From Acidobacteriota bacterium (GTDB lineage: Bacteria > Acidobacteriota > Blastocatellia > HR10 > J050), in contig RFHM01000299.1 in assembly GCA_003696865.1 (NCBI GenBank), positions 1-32,811 on the forward strand: a stretch of DNA of 32,811 bases, written 5' to 3'. Below the pieces are notes generated by a model that was not told where the DNA came from, ran no database searches, and worked only from the letters and a program-made list of their open reading frames with translations. Shown here piece after piece: positions 18,600-32,811 of the stretch. The first letter of the stretch is position 1, and every line of letters begins with the position of its first letter. A program made the position numbers and the translations under genes.

Positions 18600-20285
18600 A
18601 TGGCACCTCAACTGAAACTCGTCACCCGAGAGGCGAAAAAAGAGAAAACGCTCGTTCGCGTTGGCGACACAGTGATCGGAGGAGAAAAATTCATCATCAT
18701 GGCAGGTCCCTGCGCCGTCGAGAATCGCGAGATGCTCCTGGAGATCGCCGACCGGTTGCATCGGCTCGGCGTCACCATCCTTCGAGGCGGCGCCTTCAAA
18801 CCACGCACCTCCCCATACAGCTTCCAGGGGCTTCGGGAAGAAGGATTGAAGATCCTGGCCGAAGCGCGAGAGCGAACCGGCATGCCCGTGGTCACCGAAG
18901 TGCTCTCGGCCGATCAGGTGGATCTGGTGGCCGAGTACGCCGATATTCTGCAAATCGGGGCGCGCAATATGCAAAACTTCGAACTCCTGAAAGCCGTCGG
19001 CTCGATCGACAAACCGGTGCTTCTGAAACGGGGCATGGCCGCGACTCTGGAAGAATTCCTGGCAGCCGCAGAATATATTCTGGCCGGGGGCAACGAGCAG
19101 GTCATCCTCTGCGAACGAGGCATTCGCACCTTTTCCAACCACTCCCGATTCACGTTGGATTTGAGCTTGATTCCCGTGCTCAGGGATATGACGCATCTGC
19201 CTATCATCGTCGATCCCAGCCACGGTACGGGGAATCGTCGTTACGTCAGCCCTATGGCTCTGGCGGGCATTGCTGCCGGCGCTGACGGTCTCATGGTCGA
19301 AGTTCACCTCGATCCGGAGAAAGCCTTGTCCGATGGCCCACAGAGCCTGTACTTCAATCAGTTCGAAAAACTCCTTCGCGATCTGGAGGTCATCTCTCCC
19401 GTCGTCGGACGGCAACTGGATCTTTCCTACAAAATGCCCTCCGAAGCGACGTGGAAGCGAACGCGCCCCCTCAGGATTGCTTATCAAGGCGAGCCGGGGG
19501 CGTTCAGCGAGCGCGCCGTCTACCAGTATTTCGGTGAGACGGCTCATCCACAGTCGCTCGTCTCATTCCGCGACGTGTTTCAACAGGTGCAGACCCGCGA
19601 GTGCGATTACGGCGTGATTCCCATTGAAAACTCGCTCTCCGGGAGCATTCACGAGAACTATGATCTCCTGCTGGAGTATGACGTCGCCATCATCGGCGAG
19701 TTCAAGATGCGCATCGTGCACAACTTGATCGCTCATCCAGGTACGCGATTGGAGGACATTCGTCGCGTCTATGCCCACCCTCAAGCCGTGGCCCAATGCC
19801 GTCTGTTCCTCTCCCAGCATCCAGAATGGGAGATCATTCAGGTATACGATACCGCGGGCAGCGTCAAACACATCCGGGATCATCAACTGAAGGATGCCGC
19901 GGCCATCGCCAGCGCTCAGGCCGCCGAGAAGCTGGGCATGGCGATCCTGAAAGAGGGGATCGAATCCAATCCCCAGAACTACACGCGATTCCTCGTCATC
20001 TCTCCCGAGCATATCGTGAATGAAAAAGCCAATAAGACATCGCTCATCTACAGCACGCCCAATAAGCCCGGGGCCTTGTTCAGAACGCTACAGACGTTCG
20101 CCGAGAACAATTTGAACCTCGTCAAGCTGGAATCGCGGCCCCGTTCCGGTCGACCCTGGGAATACATGTTCTATGTGGACGTAGAAGGAAGTCTCTTCGA
20201 TCCTGCGGTCAAGCGGACGATCGATGCGTTGCGCGGCATGACGGAGTTTCTCAAAGTACTCGGCTCTTATCCTGCTTCCGCCTGA
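18600..20285 (+). CDS. Fused DAHP synthase-prephenate dehydratase with C-terminal ACT domain
   Basis: A strong ribosome site (AAGGAGG) lies 7 nt before the ATG. The product is 561 residues. Residues 15-270 form a type I-beta (KDO8P-synthase-like) DAHP synthase: [55 protein letters not shown] and DPSHGTGNR. After a short linker, residues about 290-470 form a prephenate dehydratase with [30 protein letters not shown] and the catalytic NYTRFLVI. Residues about 480-560 are an ACT domain with the phenylalanine-binding GALF and ESRP motifs. One chain thus joins the first shikimate step to phenylpyruvate formation. The N-terminal regulatory domain found in some I-beta synthases is absent, so feedback probably comes through the ACT domain. 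Confidence 0.92.
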
Positions 20286-23405: not shown

Positions 23406-24848
23406 ATGGGAGAACATCGATCCATGCGATATCGCCTCCACGAATGTCGACGCTTTCGAGTCGCCGGGCGCGAAGTCCTTTTCCTCGTACCGAGTCATTC
23501 GATCTTCGCTCTCGATGAGCTGGCCGCCGAGATCGTCCACCTTCTGGAAGAGCGGGAGGCTCTATCGATCTCCGATATTCTCCGGCATCTCAATGGTCAT
23601 CGATCATCGGCCGAGCCCATGGGCGCCATACGAGAACTCGTCTCCCTCGGCATTCTGCAGCCCGCCGCGCAGCCAATCAATCCACGCCCTCAACCTGCGC
23701 CGCCGGCGACGTTTCCTTTGCGAACGCTCGTCCTCAACGTGACCAATACCTGCAATCTCAGTTGTGGCTACTGCTACGAGTATGGCGAAGACCAATTGAG
23801 TCACTCGCCTCCCCGAGCTATGCCATGGGAGGTGGCCAAGCGCGCTGTGGATTTCCTGTTGGAGCATTCGGGGGAGAGCGATCGTGTGAGCCTCACTTTC
23901 TTCGGGGGCGAGCCGTTGCTCAATTTCAAGCTCATTCGACGGACGGTGAGCTATGCGGAGCAACGAGCCGCCGAACGGGGAAAGCGGATCGATTTCAGCC
24001 TCACCACCAATGCTACCCTGCTCACGCGCCGGGTCATCGATTTCCTCGCCGAACACCGTATTGGCGTGACGGTGAGTATCGATGGTCCTCGCGAATTGAA
24101 CGACCGGCTCCGCGTCTTTCCCAGCGGGCGCGGGAGCTATGACGTCATCGCGCCGAAAATCGCCGATTTGCTGCGGCGTCATAAGACGCGACCGATTGGC
24201 GCCCGCGTGACCCTCACCTCGGCCGTTCGTGAGGTCGAGCGCATCTTCGATTATCTCATCGACCTCGGTTTTCAGGATGTGGGATTCGCGCCAGTGACCA
24301 CAGCGGTGGGACGTGACTATGCGCTCTCAGAAGAAGCCCTCGCCGAAGTATTGAGACAATTCGAGACCCTGACCGAGCGATTCGTTGAAGCAGCATTGCG
24401 CGGATCGTATCTGGGATTTTCCAATCTCAGCGATCTCCTCTGGGAACTCCATCACGGCTTCAGCAAGAGTTATCCCTGCGGCGCCGGCCTCGGCTTGCTC
24501 GGCGTCTCACCTACCGGCGATCTGGCCCTCTGCCATCGGTTCATCGAATCCCCTCAACATCGACTGGGAACAGTGGAAACAGGCGTCGACGAGCGGCGGC
24601 GAGCAGCTTTCCTGAAAGCTGCTCATCTCTCGCGCAAGACCGATTGTCACACCTGTTGGGTGCGCGGTCTCTGCTCGGGCGGATGCCATCACGAAGCCTA
24701 CGTCCGCTATGGCGATACGTTTCATCCCAATCTCCATTACTGCGACTGGATTCGCGCCTGGACGGAGATCGGGATTCGCGCCTACGTCCGTATCATGGAA
24801 GGCAATCCGGCATTCTTCGACCGGTTGGAAGGGAGGAAAAGTCCATGA
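23406..24848 (+). CDS. qhpD: Radical SAM/SPASM peptide maturase, QhpD-like
   Basis: I prefer the ATG at 23406, preceded by GGGGAAA, giving 480 residues; the track's TTG start lies in the promoter and an ATG at 23424 is also possible. Residues about 10-85 (FRVAGREVLFLVPSHSIFAL, ISDILRHLNG, AIRELVSLGIL) resemble a PqqD-like peptide-recognition element. The radical SAM motif is CNLSCGYC (Cys116, Cys120, Cys123). The SPASM region shows the full seven-cysteine pattern, with CGAGLGLLGVSPTGDLALC, then CHTCWVRGLCSGGC (about 414-427), and a last Cys in LHYCDW. Known QhpD makes three Cys-to-Asp/Glu thioether links in QhpC, using auxiliary [4Fe-4S] clusters. The next gene is exactly such a substrate and overlaps by 4 nt (ATGA), so function and pairing are well supported. 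Confidence 0.9.
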   Translation: MGEHRSMRYRLHECRRFRVAGREVLFLVPSHSIFALDELAAEIVHLLEEREALSISDILRHLNGHRSSAEPMGAIRELVSLGILQPAAQPINPRPQPAPPATFPLRTLVLNVTNTCNLSCGYCYEYGEDQLSHSPPRAMPWEVAKRAVDFLLEHSGESDRVSLTFFGGEPLLNFKLIRRTVSYAEQRAAERGKRIDFSLTTNATLLTRRVIDFLAEHRIGVTVSIDGPRELNDRLRVFPSGRGSYDVIAPKIADLLRRHKTRPIGARVTLTSAVREVERIFDYLIDLGFQDVGFAPVTTAVGRDYALSEEALAEVLRQFETLTERFVEAALRGSYLGFSNLSDLLWELHHGFSKSYPCGAGLGLLGVSPTGDLALCHRFIESPQHRLGTVETGVDERRRAAFLKAAHLSRKTDCHTCWVRGLCSGGCHHEAYVRYGDTFHPNLHYCDWIRAWTEIGIRAYVRIMEGNPAFFDRLEGRKSP

Positions 24849-25165
24849 AACACGTCCGAGCACTCAACCGAAAAGCGCGAAGGGCTGAACGGGGGATCGA
24901 CGATCATGATGACGTGATGGCGATGCAGGAGCAACAGCCTCTTCCGCTCAGTTGCACCACGGTCTTCGATCCCGGCTGGGAGATCGATGCACTGGGCGGA
25001 ATGGGATTACTCTGTCAGCCCATGGAACGCGATCTCTACGCCTGCTACAACGAATGCTGGTGGCCGGCGCAATTGCCCGATCAGATGGTCAATTATCCCG
25101 ACTGGTCGGAAAAGTGCGCCAGCGCCGTGAAAGACTGGCGCCATTTGGATCTCGTCTTCCCGTAA
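24845..25165 (+). CDS. qhpC: Quinohemoprotein amine dehydrogenase gamma-subunit precursor (CTQ peptide)
   Basis: The track lists a longer frame, but the ATG at 24845 overlaps the maturase stop and gives 106 residues. Residues 1-30 form a basic, then acidic leader (MKHVRALNRKARRAE) for recognition and removal. Every modified residue of the Paracoccus protein is found at a constant offset of 30. Thioether pairs would be Cys37-Glu46, Cys57-Asp63 and Cys71-Asp79. The quinone would form from Cys67 and Trp73 in YACYNECWWPAQLPD. The core also keeps DPGWEIDA and NYPDWSEKC. A further Cys91 is present. In the known enzyme this subunit carries the CTQ cofactor that oxidises primary amines in the periplasm. 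There is no Sec signal, as expected for export by the operon's ABC transporter. Confidence 0.93.
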   Translation: MKHVRALNRKARRAERGIDDHDDVMAMQEQQPLPLSCTTVFDPGWEIDALGGMGLLCQPMERDLYACYNECWWPAQLPDQMVNYPDWSEKCASAVKDWRHLDLVFP

Positions 25166-25177
25166 CACCAATGGTTG

Positions 25178-26158
25178 ATGAGGACACCGGCCGCCGGTGA
25201 ACGGGAGCGAACGAGACGTGACGCGTTACAGATGATCGAGTGGGCTATCCACATCCAGAATCCTCAAGCCGTGAGGGCGTGTGACGGCCATCTCCCCACT
25301 GTATCGCCGCAAGGCAATGGGATGGCCAGCGTCCATCGACTCGCTCTCCGACTCATCGACGAGTACTTCGATTCCCTCACCATTTCGCGCGTCTATTTCG
25401 GCAACGAATTCTGTCAACACTTGATCCCTTCGCTGGCCTCGGTGCGGGAAGCTTATGGTGCCGCCCGAGATCGGGGATGGGGATTCTCATTGCTCACTCC
25501 CTATGTGACGGATGAAGGTCTGAACAAACTGAGACCCCTTTTCGAATTCCTGGAAATCCAGGATGAGTCAGTGGAAGTCATCTTCAATGATTGGGGCGTC
25601 CTCCAGCAGCTCTCGTCGTTCCCCCACCTCAAACCGGTGCACGGGCGATTGCTCGACAAGCGATTGCGCGACCCGAGGATCACGGGTCTCTATAAGAGCG
25701 CGCCCATCTCCATCCGCACGGCCGTTCAACGATCCAACGTCACCACATCTCACTATCTCGCTCTGCTCCGCCGTTACGGTGTCGAGCTGGTCGAACTCGA
25801 CAACGTGATGCAAGGGCTGGATATGGACTTCCGTAACACGCCTATCGGGGCCGCCCTCTACATTCCTTATGGGTTCGTCGCCACGGGCCGCGTGTGCATG
25901 ATCGCTTCCTTGCATCAACCCCAACGGGAGCGATTCCGACCGGAGACCAGGTGCCACCACGAATGCCAACACTACGTCACCGTGTACACCTATACGCGCC
26001 CGTTCGGGGGGGATGGAGAACAGCGCTTTCTGCTGAAGGGAAACACGCACTTTTATGCTCACACCGAAGAGATGTTCCGGTTCGTCTTTTCCCGGTTCGA
26101 GCATCTGGGCATTCGTCGCTTCATCTATCAACCGGGATTACCGATGTGGCTATCATGA
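25178..26158 (+). CDS. UbiV-like U32-family iron-sulfur protein
   Basis: The frame opens 12 nt after qhpC. I use the ATG at 25178 (326 residues); an ATG at 25232 is also possible and would still include the conserved part. Segments line up by eye with E. coli UbiV: VYFGNEFC with its YLGEAVC, VIFNDWGVLQQL with IEASDLGVVNM, then GRVCMIASL and RCHHEC with its ARC and ECETC, and FLLKGNTHFYA with FVLNGIQTM. Four cysteines (Cys79, Cys240, Cys259, Cys263) match the four-Cys cluster pattern, including the C-x3-C spacing. UbiV works with UbiU in O2-independent ubiquinone hydroxylation. Placed between the CTQ peptide and its exporter, it is a candidate for tryptophan hydroxylation (inference). Its stop overlaps the next start (ATGA). 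Confidence 0.75.
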   Translation: MRTPAAGERERTRRDALQMIEWAIHIQNPQAVRACDGHLPTVSPQGNGMASVHRLALRLIDEYFDSLTISRVYFGNEFCQHLIPSLASVREAYGAARDRGWGFSLLTPYVTDEGLNKLRPLFEFLEIQDESVEVIFNDWGVLQQLSSFPHLKPVHGRLLDKRLRDPRITGLYKSAPISIRTAVQRSNVTTSHYLALLRRYGVELVELDNVMQGLDMDFRNTPIGAALYIPYGFVATGRVCMIASLHQPQRERFRPETRCHHECQHYVTVYTYTRPFGGDGEQRFLLKGNTHFYAHTEEMFRFVFSRFEHLGIRRFIYQPGLPMWLS

Positions 26159-27165
26159 AGATTTTGACGCCCATCAATTCGCTTCAGGAAGTGGAGATGT
26201 TGGCCGAGAATGGAGCCGAGGAGTTCTATTGCGGCCTCGTCCCCGAGGAATGGCTACGACGATACGGGGGAGCACTATGGCTCAACCGGCGAAGTCCGAA
26301 AGGCGGGAACGTGCCAACGTTCGCCGAGTTGAATGCCTTGATTGCCGCCGCCCACCGGTATGGGATTCCGGTGTTCCTCACGCTGAACGCCCCAACCTAT
26401 GCGCCGGAACAGATGCCACTGGTCATCGATCTGGCCCGACGACTCGTGGAAGAGGCCGAAGCCGACGCGCTCATCATTGCCGATCCGGGATTGCTCATGG
26501 CCCTCGTCGAGAGCGGTCTCGATGCTCCACTCCACGTGAGCTCTTTGGCGGCAACGCTCAATGGCCGGGCGATCGATTTTTTCCGCCAGTGGGGCGTGAA
26601 GCGCATCATCCTGCCCCGCAGCGTGACGCTCGACGAGATGCGCCGTCTGGCCGAAACGGCTCGAGGAACGGTAGAACTGGAAGCCTTCATTCTCAACGAA
26701 GGATGCGCTTTCGAAGAGGGATACTGCCCGACCAGCAAGCATCATTCGGTGGGCGCCTATTGCACCGGACTCGTGGCTATGGAGGCGAACTTCCTCACCG
26801 CTCGCGGCGAGGAGGTGCCGCCCGACAAGCGGGATGAGGTGGGCGCTTTGCTTCAGGATTACCATCGCTGGTTGTTCTTCGTGAACAATGCTGGATGTTC
26901 CCTCTCGCCCGAAGGCCTCCCTTACGGTCCCTGCGGCCTTTGTGCCATTCCCCAGATGCACCGGATGGGCATCGCTTCGTTGAAGATCGTCGGTCGGGAA
27001 GCCTCCTCGTGGCGCAAGCTGGCCAGCCTGCGTCTGGTCAAAGCCATCGTTGATCGCGTGCGCCAAGGTATACCTGCCGATGAGGTGAGAGCCTACGCCC
27101 AATCGCTGCGAACGCCGCGCGAGTATTGTCGATCGGGATTCATGTGCTATTACCGATGGTGGTGA
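26155..27165 (+). CDS. UbiU-like U32-family protein
   Basis: The track ORF begins far upstream in another gene; the real start is the ATG at 26155, overlapping the UbiV-like stop by 4 nt, giving 336 residues. It matches E. coli UbiU and peptidase U32 proteins along its length: ENGAEEFYCGL, ADALIIADPGLLMALVE, HVSSLAATLN, VKRIILPRSVTLDEM, FILNEGCAFEEGYC and MGIASLKIVGRE. Cys184 and Cys191 keep the 7-residue spacing of UbiU Cys169/Cys176. Cys203 and Cys260 or Cys263 could complete a [4Fe-4S] site. Extra cysteines (248, 325, 331) are present. U32 relatives UbiU, RlhA and TrhP all serve hydroxylations without O2. A true peptidase role is less likely because U32 peptidase activity is poorly established and a subtilase is already encoded here. 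Confidence 0.8.
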   Translation: MKILTPINSLQEVEMLAENGAEEFYCGLVPEEWLRRYGGALWLNRRSPKGGNVPTFAELNALIAAAHRYGIPVFLTLNAPTYAPEQMPLVIDLARRLVEEAEADALIIADPGLLMALVESGLDAPLHVSSLAATLNGRAIDFFRQWGVKRIILPRSVTLDEMRRLAETARGTVELEAFILNEGCAFEEGYCPTSKHHSVGAYCTGLVAMEANFLTARGEEVPPDKRDEVGALLQDYHRWLFFVNNAGCSLSPEGLPYGPCGLCAIPQMHRMGIASLKIVGREASSWRKLASLRLVKAIVDRVRQGIPADEVRAYAQSLRTPREYCRSGFMCYYRWW

Positions 27166-28946
27166 GCCAAACGCTCAAAAGATACGCTCGACTGCTCGTT
27201 TACCTGAAGCCATATCGCCGGCGACTCGGCATCGTCCTGTTGTTGGCGTTGATCGGTACGGCAGTGAATCTGGCTTATCCCTACCTCAGCAAGATCCTCA
27301 TCGATGACGCCTTGTTGGGACGACGTTTCCAACTCCTCTTCACCGTAGGATTCGTCCTGTTCGCCGCCATGGTATTCAGCTTCGTCGTCAACGCTGCGAG
27401 TAGCCTGCTCTACGTATCCGTATCGGCGCGCGTGCTCCTGGATATGCGGTTGGACCTCTATCGCCACCTGCAACGATTGAGCCTCAAGTTTTACGATAAC
27501 ACGCGGATCGGCGAGATCCTCTCGCGCCTCAACAATGATCTGGCCGAAGCGCAACGGGTCACCTCGGATACGCTGCTCGCGCTCATCACCAATCTGCTCG
27601 TGCTCAGCGGGACGATCGCCCTCCTCCTGCTCCTCAATTGGAAGCTGTTTCTGGTGGGCATCGCTTTCCTGCCCGTGGGATTGAAGGGGCTCCTGCACTA
27701 CCGCCAGCGCGTACACCAACAGGCCAAGACGATTCGCGAGCGCAGCGCCGCGATCGGATCCTTCCTGGTGGAATCGCTGCTCGGCATCCGGCTCATCAAA
27801 GCATTCCATGCCGAAGACGCCGAAGCGGAGAGATTTCGCGCTCAGAACGAAGCCTTCATCCGCGCTCTGTTACGGTTTCAGTGGCTCTCGGTGATCGCCT
27901 CGGGCGTTCCCGGTCTCATGATGGCGATGAGTACGTTGGCCGTTCTTCTCTATGGGGGTTCGCTCATGATCGACGGCACCATGACGTTGGGGAGCCTGGT
28001 GGCCTTCATGGCTTATCAGATGCGGCTCATGCCGCCGATGCAAAATCTGGTGGCTTTGTTCATGAATTTTCAACGAGCCCGCGCTTCGCTCGATCGCGTG
28101 TTTGCATTCTTCGATCTGCAGCCGGACGTGCGCGAACATCCACATGCTCGCGAACTCGACTGGGTCCGGGGAGAGATCGAGTTCGATGAAGTGACGATGA
28201 GCTATGAGCCCGGTCGACCGGTCCTGAAGAAGGTGAGTTTCACCGTCCCCGCCGGAACGACCTGCGCGCTCGTCGGGCCGAGCGGTGGGGGGAAATCGAC
28301 GATCGCCGATCTCCTCCTCCGATTTTATGATCCTTCGTCGGGCGTCATTCGAGTGGACGGCCACGATGTGAGAGAAGTGACCCTGGAGAGCTTGCGACGC
28401 CACATCTGCCTGGTCGATCAAGAGACGTTCCTGTTCAGTGGAACGATCGAAGACAATATTCGCTACGGACGACCCACGGCCACGTTCGATGAGATCGTCG
28501 CCGCCGCTCAAGCTGCCGCCATCCATGAATTCATCGAGGCGCTCCCCCAGGGATATCGAACGGTCGTCGGCGAGCGCGGCGTGAAACTCTCGGGCGGACA
28601 GCGACAGCGTCTGGCCATCGCGCGGGCCGTGTTGCGCGATCCCGCTATTCTGATCCTCGACGAGGCGACATCGGCGCTGGATTGGCAGGCCGAGAGCAGC
28701 ATCAAGGAAGCAGTGGCCCGCCTCATGCGCGGGCGAACGACCCTCATCATCTCTCACCGACTCTCACTCATCCAGGACGCCGATCTCATCATCGTGTTAG
28801 AAAATGGAGAGGTCGTCCAGCGTGGTCGTCACCAACAATTGCTGCGCGAGCCGGGAGCCTATCGACGACTGTTCATCAAGCAGGCGGGCGCGCTTGAGAA
28901 GGACGCGTTCAGCCCCGCGCTCTCTCCGACAGAGAGCCTCTCCTAG
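27156..28946 (+). CDS. qhpF: ABC exporter with fused membrane and ATPase domains, QhpF-like
   Basis: The likely start is the ATG at 27156 or the GTG at 27162 (GTGA overlap with the UbiU-like stop); 596 residues from the ATG. The N-terminal half is a six-span transmembrane domain (GIVLLLALIGTAVNLAYPYL, FVLFAAMVFSFVVNAASSLL, LLVLSGTIALLLLLNW). The C-terminal ATPase has Walker A GPSGGGKST, signature LSGGQRQRLAIARA, Walker B ILILDEATSALD and the switch SHRLSLI. Known QhpF is an exporter of this half-transporter kind, needed to move modified QhpC to the periplasm. Position in this operon supports the same role. Sequence alone would also allow a lipid or drug exporter. Confidence 0.88.
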   Translation: MVVSQTLKRYARLLVYLKPYRRRLGIVLLLALIGTAVNLAYPYLSKILIDDALLGRRFQLLFTVGFVLFAAMVFSFVVNAASSLLYVSVSARVLLDMRLDLYRHLQRLSLKFYDNTRIGEILSRLNNDLAEAQRVTSDTLLALITNLLVLSGTIALLLLLNWKLFLVGIAFLPVGLKGLLHYRQRVHQQAKTIRERSAAIGSFLVESLLGIRLIKAFHAEDAEAERFRAQNEAFIRALLRFQWLSVIASGVPGLMMAMSTLAVLLYGGSLMIDGTMTLGSLVAFMAYQMRLMPPMQNLVALFMNFQRARASLDRVFAFFDLQPDVREHPHARELDWVRGEIEFDEVTMSYEPGRPVLKKVSFTVPAGTTCALVGPSGGGKSTIADLLLRFYDPSSGVIRVDGHDVREVTLESLRRHICLVDQETFLFSGTIEDNIRYGRPTATFDEIVAAAQAAAIHEFIEALPQGYRTVVGERGVKLSGGQRQRLAIARAVLRDPAILILDEATSALDWQAESSIKEAVARLMRGRTTLIISHRLSLIQDADLIIVLENGEVVQRGRHQQLLREPGAYRRLFIKQAGALEKDAFSPALSPTESLS

Positions 28947-28967
28947 TCCACCGATGGCGAGACGTCT

Positions 28968-29681
28968 ATGTCTGTGCGCATTGGAATCATCGACAGTGGA
29001 ATCAATCCCTTTCACTCCCACGTGGGAAACGTCTCCGGCGGCGTCGCCCTGCGGCGTGGTGAGGACGGTCGGATCGAAGTACTGGATGACTTCCGGGATT
29101 TCATCGGACACGGCACGGCAGTGGCCGGAGTCATCCGCCAGAAGGCTCCCGAAGCCGAGTTGTTCGCCATCAAGGTATTCCATCGACGCCTCATCACGTC
29201 GGCCGACGTCATCGCCGAAGCGATTGGTTGGGCCGTCGATCATGATGTGAAGCTCATCAACTTGAGCTTGGGCACGTTGAACTGGAAGCACCGCCCTCTC
29301 TTTGAGCGCGCCTGTCAACGGGCACTGGATCGAGGCTCGATCGTCATCGCTCCGGCGCACCATCGCGGGCGAGCCATCCTTCCAGGAGCGCTGCCCTGCT
29401 GTCTGGGCGTGGCGATGATGGCGTCATGTTCGCCCGGCGAATATTTTTATCGTCGCCTGGGAGAGCAACTCGCGTTCCTGGCCCATCCCTGGCCACGAGA
29501 TCTCCCGGGCGTGCCTCGAGAGCGCAATCTGCACGGACTGAGCTTCGCCGTCGCTCACATGACGGGATTCGCGGCCCGCCTCATTAACGAACACCCGAAT
29601 ATCACCTTGATCGAGCTGGAACGGCAGCTCCAACGACGGGGCAAGAAGCTCGCCGAGGACGCTCATCCTTCGCCGAAATGA
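28968..29681 (+). CDS. qhpE: Cytoplasmic subtilisin-like leader protease, QhpE-like
   Basis: The 237-residue product has no signal peptide or propeptide, unlike secreted subtilases, which fits cytosolic processing. The triad is present: Asp9 (IGIIDSG), His48 (FIGHGTAVAG) and Ser192 (LHGLSFAVAH, for GTSxAxPH). The usual oxyanion-hole asparagine of AAGN appears to be replaced, as the matching segment reads IVIAPAHH (His131). The domain is small for the family. Known QhpE cleaves the 28-residue leader of QhpC, and this gene would do the same after residue 30 or so of the peptide encoded 3.8 kb upstream. It lies 21 bp after the exporter gene and closes the operon. Confidence 0.87.
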   Translation: MSVRIGIIDSGINPFHSHVGNVSGGVALRRGEDGRIEVLDDFRDFIGHGTAVAGVIRQKAPEAELFAIKVFHRRLITSADVIAEAIGWAVDHDVKLINLSLGTLNWKHRPLFERACQRALDRGSIVIAPAHHRGRAILPGALPCCLGVAMMASCSPGEYFYRRLGEQLAFLAHPWPRDLPGVPRERNLHGLSFAVAHMTGFAARLINEHPNITLIELERQLQRRGKKLAEDAHPSPK

Positions 29682-31310: not shown

Positions 31311-31880
31311 ATGTCTTCTATTTCTAAAAGCCAGAAAGTCCGGATCATTTCTCTCCTTCGAGAAGGCCAGCTCGACCGCGAGGAGATCGCAGCGGAAGTG
31401 GGCGTTTCACCAGGAACGGTCAGCGCTATCAAGGCGCACATGACGATGGGAACTTATGGCGACCTTCCTCCTTCTGAAGCCGAGACCGACGAACTCATCG
31501 AAGCGGCGGAAGCGACGTTCGGGCTGGAACGCGATCTGCAGCGCGCCCTGCGCTCTCATATCCAACACCTCGAAGAAGGCTTGGTGATCATCGACGAGGG
31601 CAAAGAATATACGACCGAAGCCGGCCGAATAGATATGCTGGCCAGGGATGCCGGTGACAGGATCGTTGTCATTGAATTGAAGGCGGGAAGGGCTGCTCCG
31701 GAAGCCCTGACTCAGCTTCTCGCCTATATGGGAGCCGTGAGCAAACAGCAACAGCAGCCCGTACGGGGCATCCTCGTGGCAGGTGATTTTCATCCACGCG
31801 TTGTATTCGCCGCGCGCGCCGTTCCCAATGTCACGTTGCGCCGGTATCGCTTCAAATTCGCGTTCGAGTCAATCGATTGA
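31311..31880 (+). CDS. HTH plus NucS-like nuclease domain protein
   Basis: The 189-residue product begins with a helix-turn-helix (residues about 5-45, LLREGQLDREEIAAEVGVSP, GTVSAIKAHM). After an acidic linker comes the C-terminal nuclease domain of NucS/DUF91 proteins: FGLERDLQRALRSHI, then GRIDMLARDAGDRIVVIELKAGRAAPEALTQL (quoted in part as GRIDMLARD and VVIELKAG). These contain the Asp and Glu-x-Lys residues of the PD-(D/E)xK site. Full NucS cuts mismatched or branched DNA and has an N-terminal dimer/DNA-binding domain; here an HTH takes its place. It might be a repair or defence nuclease or a DNA-binding regulator; the role is not known. It lies 18 bp after the synthetase gene and is probably co-transcribed. 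Confidence 0.75.
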   Translation: MSSISKSQKVRIISLLREGQLDREEIAAEVGVSPGTVSAIKAHMTMGTYGDLPPSEAETDELIEAAEATFGLERDLQRALRSHIQHLEEGLVIIDEGKEYTTEAGRIDMLARDAGDRIVVIELKAGRAAPEALTQLLAYMGAVSKQQQQPVRGILVAGDFHPRVVFAARAVPNVTLRRYRFKFAFESID

Positions 31881-31937: not shown

Positions 31938-32811
31938 TCACCTTTTCTTCCGTTCCAATTCCCGTCGTCGGAGTTCCACCCGACGAATTTTGCCGCTGAT
32001 CGTCTTGGGCAGCTCCTTGACGAATTCGATCTCGCGAGGATATTTGTAAGGGGCGGTCACGGTCTTCACATGCTCTTGAAGCTCCTTGACCAACTCGTCG
32101 GACGGCTGAACGTCAGGGCTCAACACGACGAAGGCTTTGACGATCTGTCCGCGAACTTCATCCGGACTGGCCACCACCGCGGCTTCGACAACGGCCGGGT
32201 GTTCGACCAGCGCGCTCTCCACCTCGAACGGACCGATGCGATATCCGGCGCTGATGATGACATCGTCGGCCCTCCCCACGAACCAGAAATATCCCTCTTC
32301 GTCCCGGTACGCCCGGTCTCCGGTCACATACCACTCGCCCCGTCTCGTCCGAGCGGTGAGCTCGGGATTCTTCCAGTAGCCCTGGAACAGAGACGGCGGG
32401 TGCCCTCTCAAAGCGATCTCTCCTTCCTGGCCCGCGGGTAGCTCATTCCCATCCACATCGATGATGGCGACCTCATGCCCGGGCATCGGTTTGCCCATCG
32501 AGCCCGGTTTCGTCTCCATACAGGGGAAGTTGGCCACGAGAATGATCGTCTCCGTCTGCCCGTAGCCATCATAAATGGAGAGGCCCGTGGCCTCCTGCCA
32601 CACGGCAATGACTTCAGGATTCAGTGGCTCGCCGGCGCTGACGGCGTGGCGTAATCGAAAGGCATATTTTCGCAAATCCTCTCTCACCAACATGCGATAA
32701 GCGGTGGGCGGGGCACAAAAGACGGTGATGCCATACCGTTGGAGGATGTCCAACGTCTGCTCGGGATCGAAACCGCCTTCGAACATGAACACTGTCGCCC
32801 CCATATTCCAC
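31938..32811 (-). CDS. Acyl-CoA synthetase (medium-chain/acetyl-CoA synthetase-like), 5' end beyond window
   Basis: The reading frame continues past the right edge (the last visible codons before the track's ATG encode Trp-Asn), so the N-terminal half with the P-loop is missing. The visible 290 residues are the second half of an adenylate-forming ligase: FCAPPTAYRMLV, YDGYGQTETIILVANF, GEWYVTGDRAYRDEEGYFWF, GRADDVIISAGYRIGPFEVE and the catalytic-lysine region LPKTISGKIRRVEL. The pattern fits the medium-chain acyl-CoA synthetase (ACSM) group, which takes short and medium acids such as butyrate or isobutyrate. It is convergent with the nuclease gene, with 57 bp between them. Confidence 0.9.
   Translation of the reverse strand, partial: WNMGATVFMFEGGFDPEQTLDILQRYGITVFCAPPTAYRMLVREDLRKYAFRLRHAVSAGEPLNPEVIAVWQEATGLSIYDGYGQTETIILVANFPCMETKPGSMGKPMPGHEVAIIDVDGNELPAGQEGEIALRGHPPSLFQGYWKNPELTARTRRGEWYVTGDRAYRDEEGYFWFVGRADDVIISAGYRIGPFEVESALVEHPAVVEAAVVASPDEVRGQIVKAFVVLSPDVQPSDELVKELQEHVKTVTAPYKYPREIEFVKELPKTISGKIRRVELRRRELERKKR

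Follow-up and report, generated by a model that had tools for sequence, protein, structure and literature searches.

A qhp maturation operon from an acidobacterium in which a U32-type protein pair probably does the job of the O2-dependent hydroxylase QhpG

An operon for QHNDH maturation in the 32,811-nucleotide stretch of acidobacterial DNA analysed here (hereafter the window) contains no gene for QhpG and encodes instead two adjacent proteins, referred to as U-like and V-like, that recall the U32 hydroxylases UbiU and UbiV. It is probably best read, as a whole, as a qhp maturation operon in which the U32 pair stands in for QhpG. QhpG is the O2-requiring hydroxylase in the assembly of the tryptophylquinone cofactor CTQ of this amine dehydrogenase, for which QhpD, a radical SAM/SPASM enzyme, forms Cys-Asp/Glu thioethers in QhpC. 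It appears moderately likely that a tryptophylquinone can also be made by another route that needs no O2, in which a U32 Fe-S heterodimer dihydroxylates the tryptophan of a radical-SAM-cross-linked protein, and that the O2-dependent enzyme has been displaced in this way several times.

The operon and a second qhp cluster

Six tightly packed genes in the order qhpD-qhpC-V-U-qhpF-qhpE occupy positions 23406-29681 of the window, all on the + strand, which bears out the sequence-only reading that an operon with QhpD-, QhpC-, QhpF- and QhpE-like proteins lies here. The first gene, qhpD (23406..24848), scores 595 bits on TIGR03906 (cut-off 453), and its product is 45% identical to Pseudomonas QhpD. 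It is followed by qhpC (24845..25165; NF037958 140 bits, cut-off 50; PF08992 122 bits, cut-off 25), which encodes a leader and the gamma subunit, the CTQ-bearing substrate, and aligns to PDB 1jmx_G with an E-value of 2.5e-28. The V-like gene (25232..26158) and the U-like gene (26155..27165) come next, and the operon closes with a qhpF-like ABC exporter gene (27156..28946; PF00664 and PF00005), the product of which shares 39% identity with Pseudomonas QhpF, and with qhpE for a subtilisin-like leader protease (28968..29681; NF049966 172.5 bits, cut-off 165). Four stop/start overlaps had been counted in the sequence-only reading; there are three, between D and C (4 bases), V and U (4 bases) and U and F (10 bases), together with two short gaps of 66 bp (C-V) and 21 bp (F-E). 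Comparison of the window genome with its sister genome indicates purifying selection on all six genes (omega 0.09-0.13), while scans for promoters and terminators gave nothing above chance. Further downstream, at 31311-31880, the window encodes a protein that joins an N-terminal helix-turn-helix-like part to a NucS C-terminal nuclease domain.

The substrate is intact. Alignment with solved gamma subunits places the CTQ pair in the motif CYNECWW (25043..25063, + strand), with the Cys67 codon at 25043-25045 and the Trp73 codon at 25061-25063, and the window QhpC retains the CTQ cysteine and tryptophan as well as all three Cys/acid cross-link pairs. The same residues, with the cross-link partners C37/E46, C57/D63 and C71/D79 (protein numbering), are conserved across the QhpC sequences read from U32-type operons.

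Genes for QhpA and QhpB are absent from the window. The same genome (G000) holds a second cluster on contig C66 (L032 1939-6494) with the order qhpA-D-C-B, followed by an aldehyde dehydrogenase gene. The end of this contig overlaps the right end of the window exactly over 99 bases (32713-32811) and an acyl-CoA synthetase-type gene reads through the inferred junction, which probably makes the two clusters convergent neighbours with about 7.6 kb between them. The C66 cluster contains neither E nor F nor a hydroxylase gene of its own, and on the QhpD tree its QhpD falls with those of the proteobacterial type. With the window operon and the C66 cluster combined, the QHNDH parts of this genome are complete except for one function, that of QhpG.

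The U-like and V-like proteins

The U-like protein is a member of the Peptidase_U32 family (PF01136, 117 bits, cut-off 22.4), its profile matches that of UbiU (hhalign 99.8%, E 8.9e-29), and the top fold match of its predicted model is the solved U32 structure 5D88 (E 8.9e-9). It was nevertheless rejected as UbiU itself, since the U-like proteins group together in one clade outside UbiU and TrhP and since it reaches 85.5 of the 440 bits set as cut-off for the UbiU equivalog NF047963. Its C-x6-C motif (C184, C191), which aligns with C169/C176 of UbiU, belongs to a set of eight invariant cysteines; of the UbiU pattern CX6CX16CX38C the CX6C is kept, the next cysteine follows after x11, and there are extra cysteines. 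The U-like gene is the sole PF01136 gene of the window genome, in which no TrhP/RlhA-type U32 protein was detected, which means that the U-like protein is no surplus copy of an RNA hydroxylase.

The Pfam name of this family might suggest a peptidase role for the two proteins in processing the QhpC leader. This can hardly be credited, given that 10 of the 11 U32-type operons encode QhpE, the protease known to act on the leader, and that the invariant residues are cysteines of the cluster type.

The kinship of the V-like protein is far more distant. Searches of Pfam, NCBIfam and PDB sequences returned no match, and neither local nor global profile comparison with UbiV alone reached significance (hhalign 1.3%), for which reason it was not accepted as UbiV; a match (E 3.7e-5, 71%) emerged against the merged U32 families. 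Its predicted model is barrel-like (pLDDT 71) and retrieved only generic barrels in a fold search. Both models, with a pLDDT of about 71, render the cysteine regions poorly and are not a source from which cluster geometry can be read. The V-like protein is a putative U32-type TIM barrel, a remote relative only.

Hydroxylation by UbiU and UbiV needs no O2, and both hold [4Fe-4S] clusters by cysteines, in UbiV by C39, C180, C193 and C197 (PMC6747719). The V-like protein has four cysteines (C61, C222, C241 and C245) in the same order, which are invariant in 15 of 15 relatives and follow the UbiV pattern Cxn-C-x12-C-x3-C with x18 replacing x12. The C-x6-C of the U-like and the C-x3-C of the V-like protein, both correctly picked out in the sequence-only reading, are likewise invariant (15/15). 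The description of the two as U32 proteins and as a UbiU/UbiV-type pair therefore holds in part: the U-like protein has a family match and a UbiU profile match and both show the cysteine patterns, but the U-like protein belongs to a clade of its own and the V-like protein, a remote relative only, matches no family and not UbiV alone.

Distribution of QhpG and the U32 pair

Three separate profiles were used to look for QhpG. The first was built from four plasmid-borne QhpG sequences and gives true QhpG 696-703 bits, while its best score in the window genome is about 23 bits; the others represent the divergent acidobacterial QhpG and a shorter sphingomonad flavoprotein, which is homologous to QhpG (hhalign 99.0%, E 3.5e-18). 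By all three, a QhpG-type flavoprotein is absent from the operon, as had been stated before, and also from the window and from the 94%-complete assembly. At an E-value of 1e-30 no QhpG-type gene was found in G000, G001, G049, G405, G496, G497 and G499, that is, in seven of the ten genomes with a U32 operon when Motiliproteus is excluded.

A QhpG that escapes recognition and acts in trans, the U32 pair being incidental, is very unlikely. The window assembly does consist of 484 contigs at 94% completeness, and several qhp operons do rely on a remote flavoprotein gene. However, none of the profiles finds QhpG in the window genome, where a qhpG had been named in advance as evidence against replacement, in its sister G001 (98% complete) or in G405 (100% complete); the best FAD protein of the window genome has 91 bits on a profile that gives operon QhpG 330-553; and the genomes with a remote flavoprotein are without V.

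In G017 and G036, the sole QhpG-type flavoproteins sit outside qhp settings, and both were set aside as candidates for a qhp-associated QhpG. The one in G017 adjoins a LodA-like gene (L156 5747-8756), named from its N-terminal sequence and not by family search, and the match is probably explained by LodB/GoxB kinship; the one in G036 is surrounded by NRPS-type genes. The only QhpG-related flavoprotein in G498 also lies away from qhp, in an uninformative context. Through the LodA-like and LodB-like pair, G017, whose qhp is of the U32 type, holds a CTQ enzyme of another kind as well.

At about 330 aa and with almost no Pfam signal, the short, divergent QhpG-type flavoprotein is encoded at L040 9504-10499 and at about 45 further loci (e.g. 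L063, L074, L195) in sphingomonads, acetobacters and acidobacteria, and it is probably the QhpG of these operons.

The locus sample was drawn from a QhpC search, which gave 80 named loci in species genomes, and from a QhpD search, which was positive in 29 of 396 genomes of the phylum, and neighbouring genes were classified by profile score. Among 118 qhp loci, a flavoprotein is found at 84, the U32 pair at 12 (11 operons), neither at 22 and both at none, so that U32 pairs, which would have counted against replacement if equally common beside qhpG, do not occur there at all in this sample. The 22 loci with neither are mostly fragments or secondary clusters; when seven operons of this type were followed, all seven genomes had a QhpG-type gene elsewhere, the short form in five (226-361 bits) and the long form in two (268-290 bits), and none had a V-like gene.

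The hosts of the U32 pair are mostly MAGs. The V-like gene occurs in 8 of the 396 phylum genomes, all of them among the 29 with QhpD, a co-occurrence with a probability of 3e-10 if genomes are treated as independent and of 2e-7 by genus (6/6); marginal matches in G253 and G298 (about 23 bits) were discarded as noise. Among 321 Gammaproteobacteria a single genome, that of Motiliproteus, carries the gene, and it also has QhpD. The pair is placed variously as C-V-U-F, B-V-U-F, B-V-U-E, upstream of A, after E, or as D-V-U-F-E apart from A-C-B, the last in G036 (L037, L057), where, on one contig, a considerable distance separates this maturation block from A-C-B. Because of these varied placements, the linkage to qhp cannot be ascribed to one inherited block.

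On the QhpD tree, which has 89 rows, was computed by a quick method and contains some long branches, the state changes between flavoprotein and U32 pair at least six times. Two operons from Terriglobia, L066 with the U32 pair and L051 with QhpG, are supported sisters, the Motiliproteus operon with the pair (L116) is nested among Oceanospirillales operons with QhpG, and one genus contains both states (the pair in G405, a flavoprotein in G315). That the U32 pair replaces QhpG is, on this evidence, likely.

The mutual exclusion that the sequence-only reading had proposed as a check thus applies to every operon, but not to every genome, as five genomes hold both systems. Four are acidobacterial (G184, G252, G318 and G373; L190-L193, L150-L153): their qhp operons contain a divergent QhpG, and the U32 pair is encoded elsewhere. 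The fifth, Motiliproteus (G500), has two qhp operons (L155 and L116/L194), one with QhpG and the other with the U32 pair. Since these genomes retain both, it may be that the pair is not the only hydroxylase in every host but sometimes one of two options, and they would resemble organisms that combine O2-dependent ubiquinone hydroxylases with UbiU/UbiV. Possession of both is also what would be predicted if the pair carried out an extra step elsewhere in QHNDH maturation, on another residue, in redox priming or as a chaperone, with the tryptophan hydroxylated autocatalytically; an autocatalytic first hydroxyl has reportedly been proposed for LodA and MADH. Such a role is quite unlikely, as most operons have QhpG without the pair, as operons with the pair lack QhpG across the at least six switches, and as QhpG, which works in a QhpC-D-G complex, adds both oxygens to the unmodified tryptophan of QhpD-cross-linked QhpC and cannot be dispensed with in the system that was studied (PMC7876137).

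Proposed reaction and comparison with known systems

It is moderately likely that the pair dihydroxylates the QhpC tryptophan by means of Fe-S clusters and without O2, a chemistry inferred from UbiU/UbiV. QhpD would form three Cys-Asp/Glu thioethers in QhpC, whereupon a V-like/U-like heterodimer with one [4Fe-4S] cluster per partner would take the place of QhpG in the QhpC-D-G complex and add two hydroxyls to Trp73 of the cross-linked protein by U32 chemistry. The oxygen donor would most likely be prephenate rather than O2, as proposed for UbiU/UbiV, and the hydroxyl of anaerobic ubiquinone synthesis does come from prephenate (PMC11574389). QhpE would cleave the leader and QhpF export the subunit; with QhpA and QhpB, the bond between Cys67 and Trp73 would then close and oxidation would yield CTQ. 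A DAHP synthase-prephenate dehydratase fusion, read from the sequence at 18600-20285 of the window and 3 kb upstream of the operon, deserves mention solely because prephenate is suspected as the donor.

Alternatively, the pair could replace QhpG on the QhpC tryptophan but use O2, peroxide or water, with Fe-S sites that only carry electrons, so that the reaction would not be O2-independent or not prephenate-linked. The evidence for replacement is blind to chemistry, and the U-like protein, with its extra invariant cysteines, stands outside UbiU and TrhP; yet UbiU/UbiV, RlhA and TrhP are all described as O2-independent or prephenate-linked (PMC6747719, PMC11574389), which makes this variant unlikely.

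Should the U32 pair indeed do the job of QhpG without O2, then CTQ can form in its absence, the substrates of U32 hydroxylases extend beyond RNA and lipid to proteins, with this pair as the first known to have a protein substrate, and the aerobic/anaerobic enzyme pairing of ubiquinone synthesis has a counterpart in the making of a protein cofactor. QHNDH feeds a respiratory chain, so that the proposal does not entail strict anoxia. QhpC with QhpD would also offer a soluble, genetically linked substrate for the study of the U32 hydroxylase mechanism. No paper joining quinohemoprotein amine dehydrogenase with U32, or tryptophylquinone with UbiU, was found in a literature search in which subscription journals were little covered. 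What would be new is that a cofactor pathway already known uses an unrelated hydroxylase, from a superfamily likewise known, on a new class of substrate.

Compared with the qhp systems of Paracoccus and Pseudomonas (PMC7876137), the window operon shares QhpD, QhpC, QhpE and QhpF, the substrate motif and the target tryptophan, but it has the U32 pair instead of QhpG, and QhpA and QhpB are encoded in the second, adjoining cluster. LodB and GoxB, relatives of QhpG, are likewise partners in making CTQ, for other enzymes, yet they are flavoproteins and thus, unlike the window pair, FAD enzymes. TrhP and RlhA have in common with the pair the U32 fold, and with its proposed reaction the hydroxylation of a ring carbon and the link to prephenate, whereas they are single proteins that act on RNA. 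UbiU/UbiV (PMC6747719) differ in that the U-like protein forms a separate clade and the V-like protein is only remotely related, in that the proposed substrate is a peptidyl tryptophan and not a lipid, and in that the window pair has no UbiT neighbour. They nevertheless resemble it in being an adjacent pair, in the profile match and C-x6-C of the U-like protein and in the order of the four cysteines of the V-like protein, and a further parallel would be that more than one position of an aromatic ring is hydroxylated.
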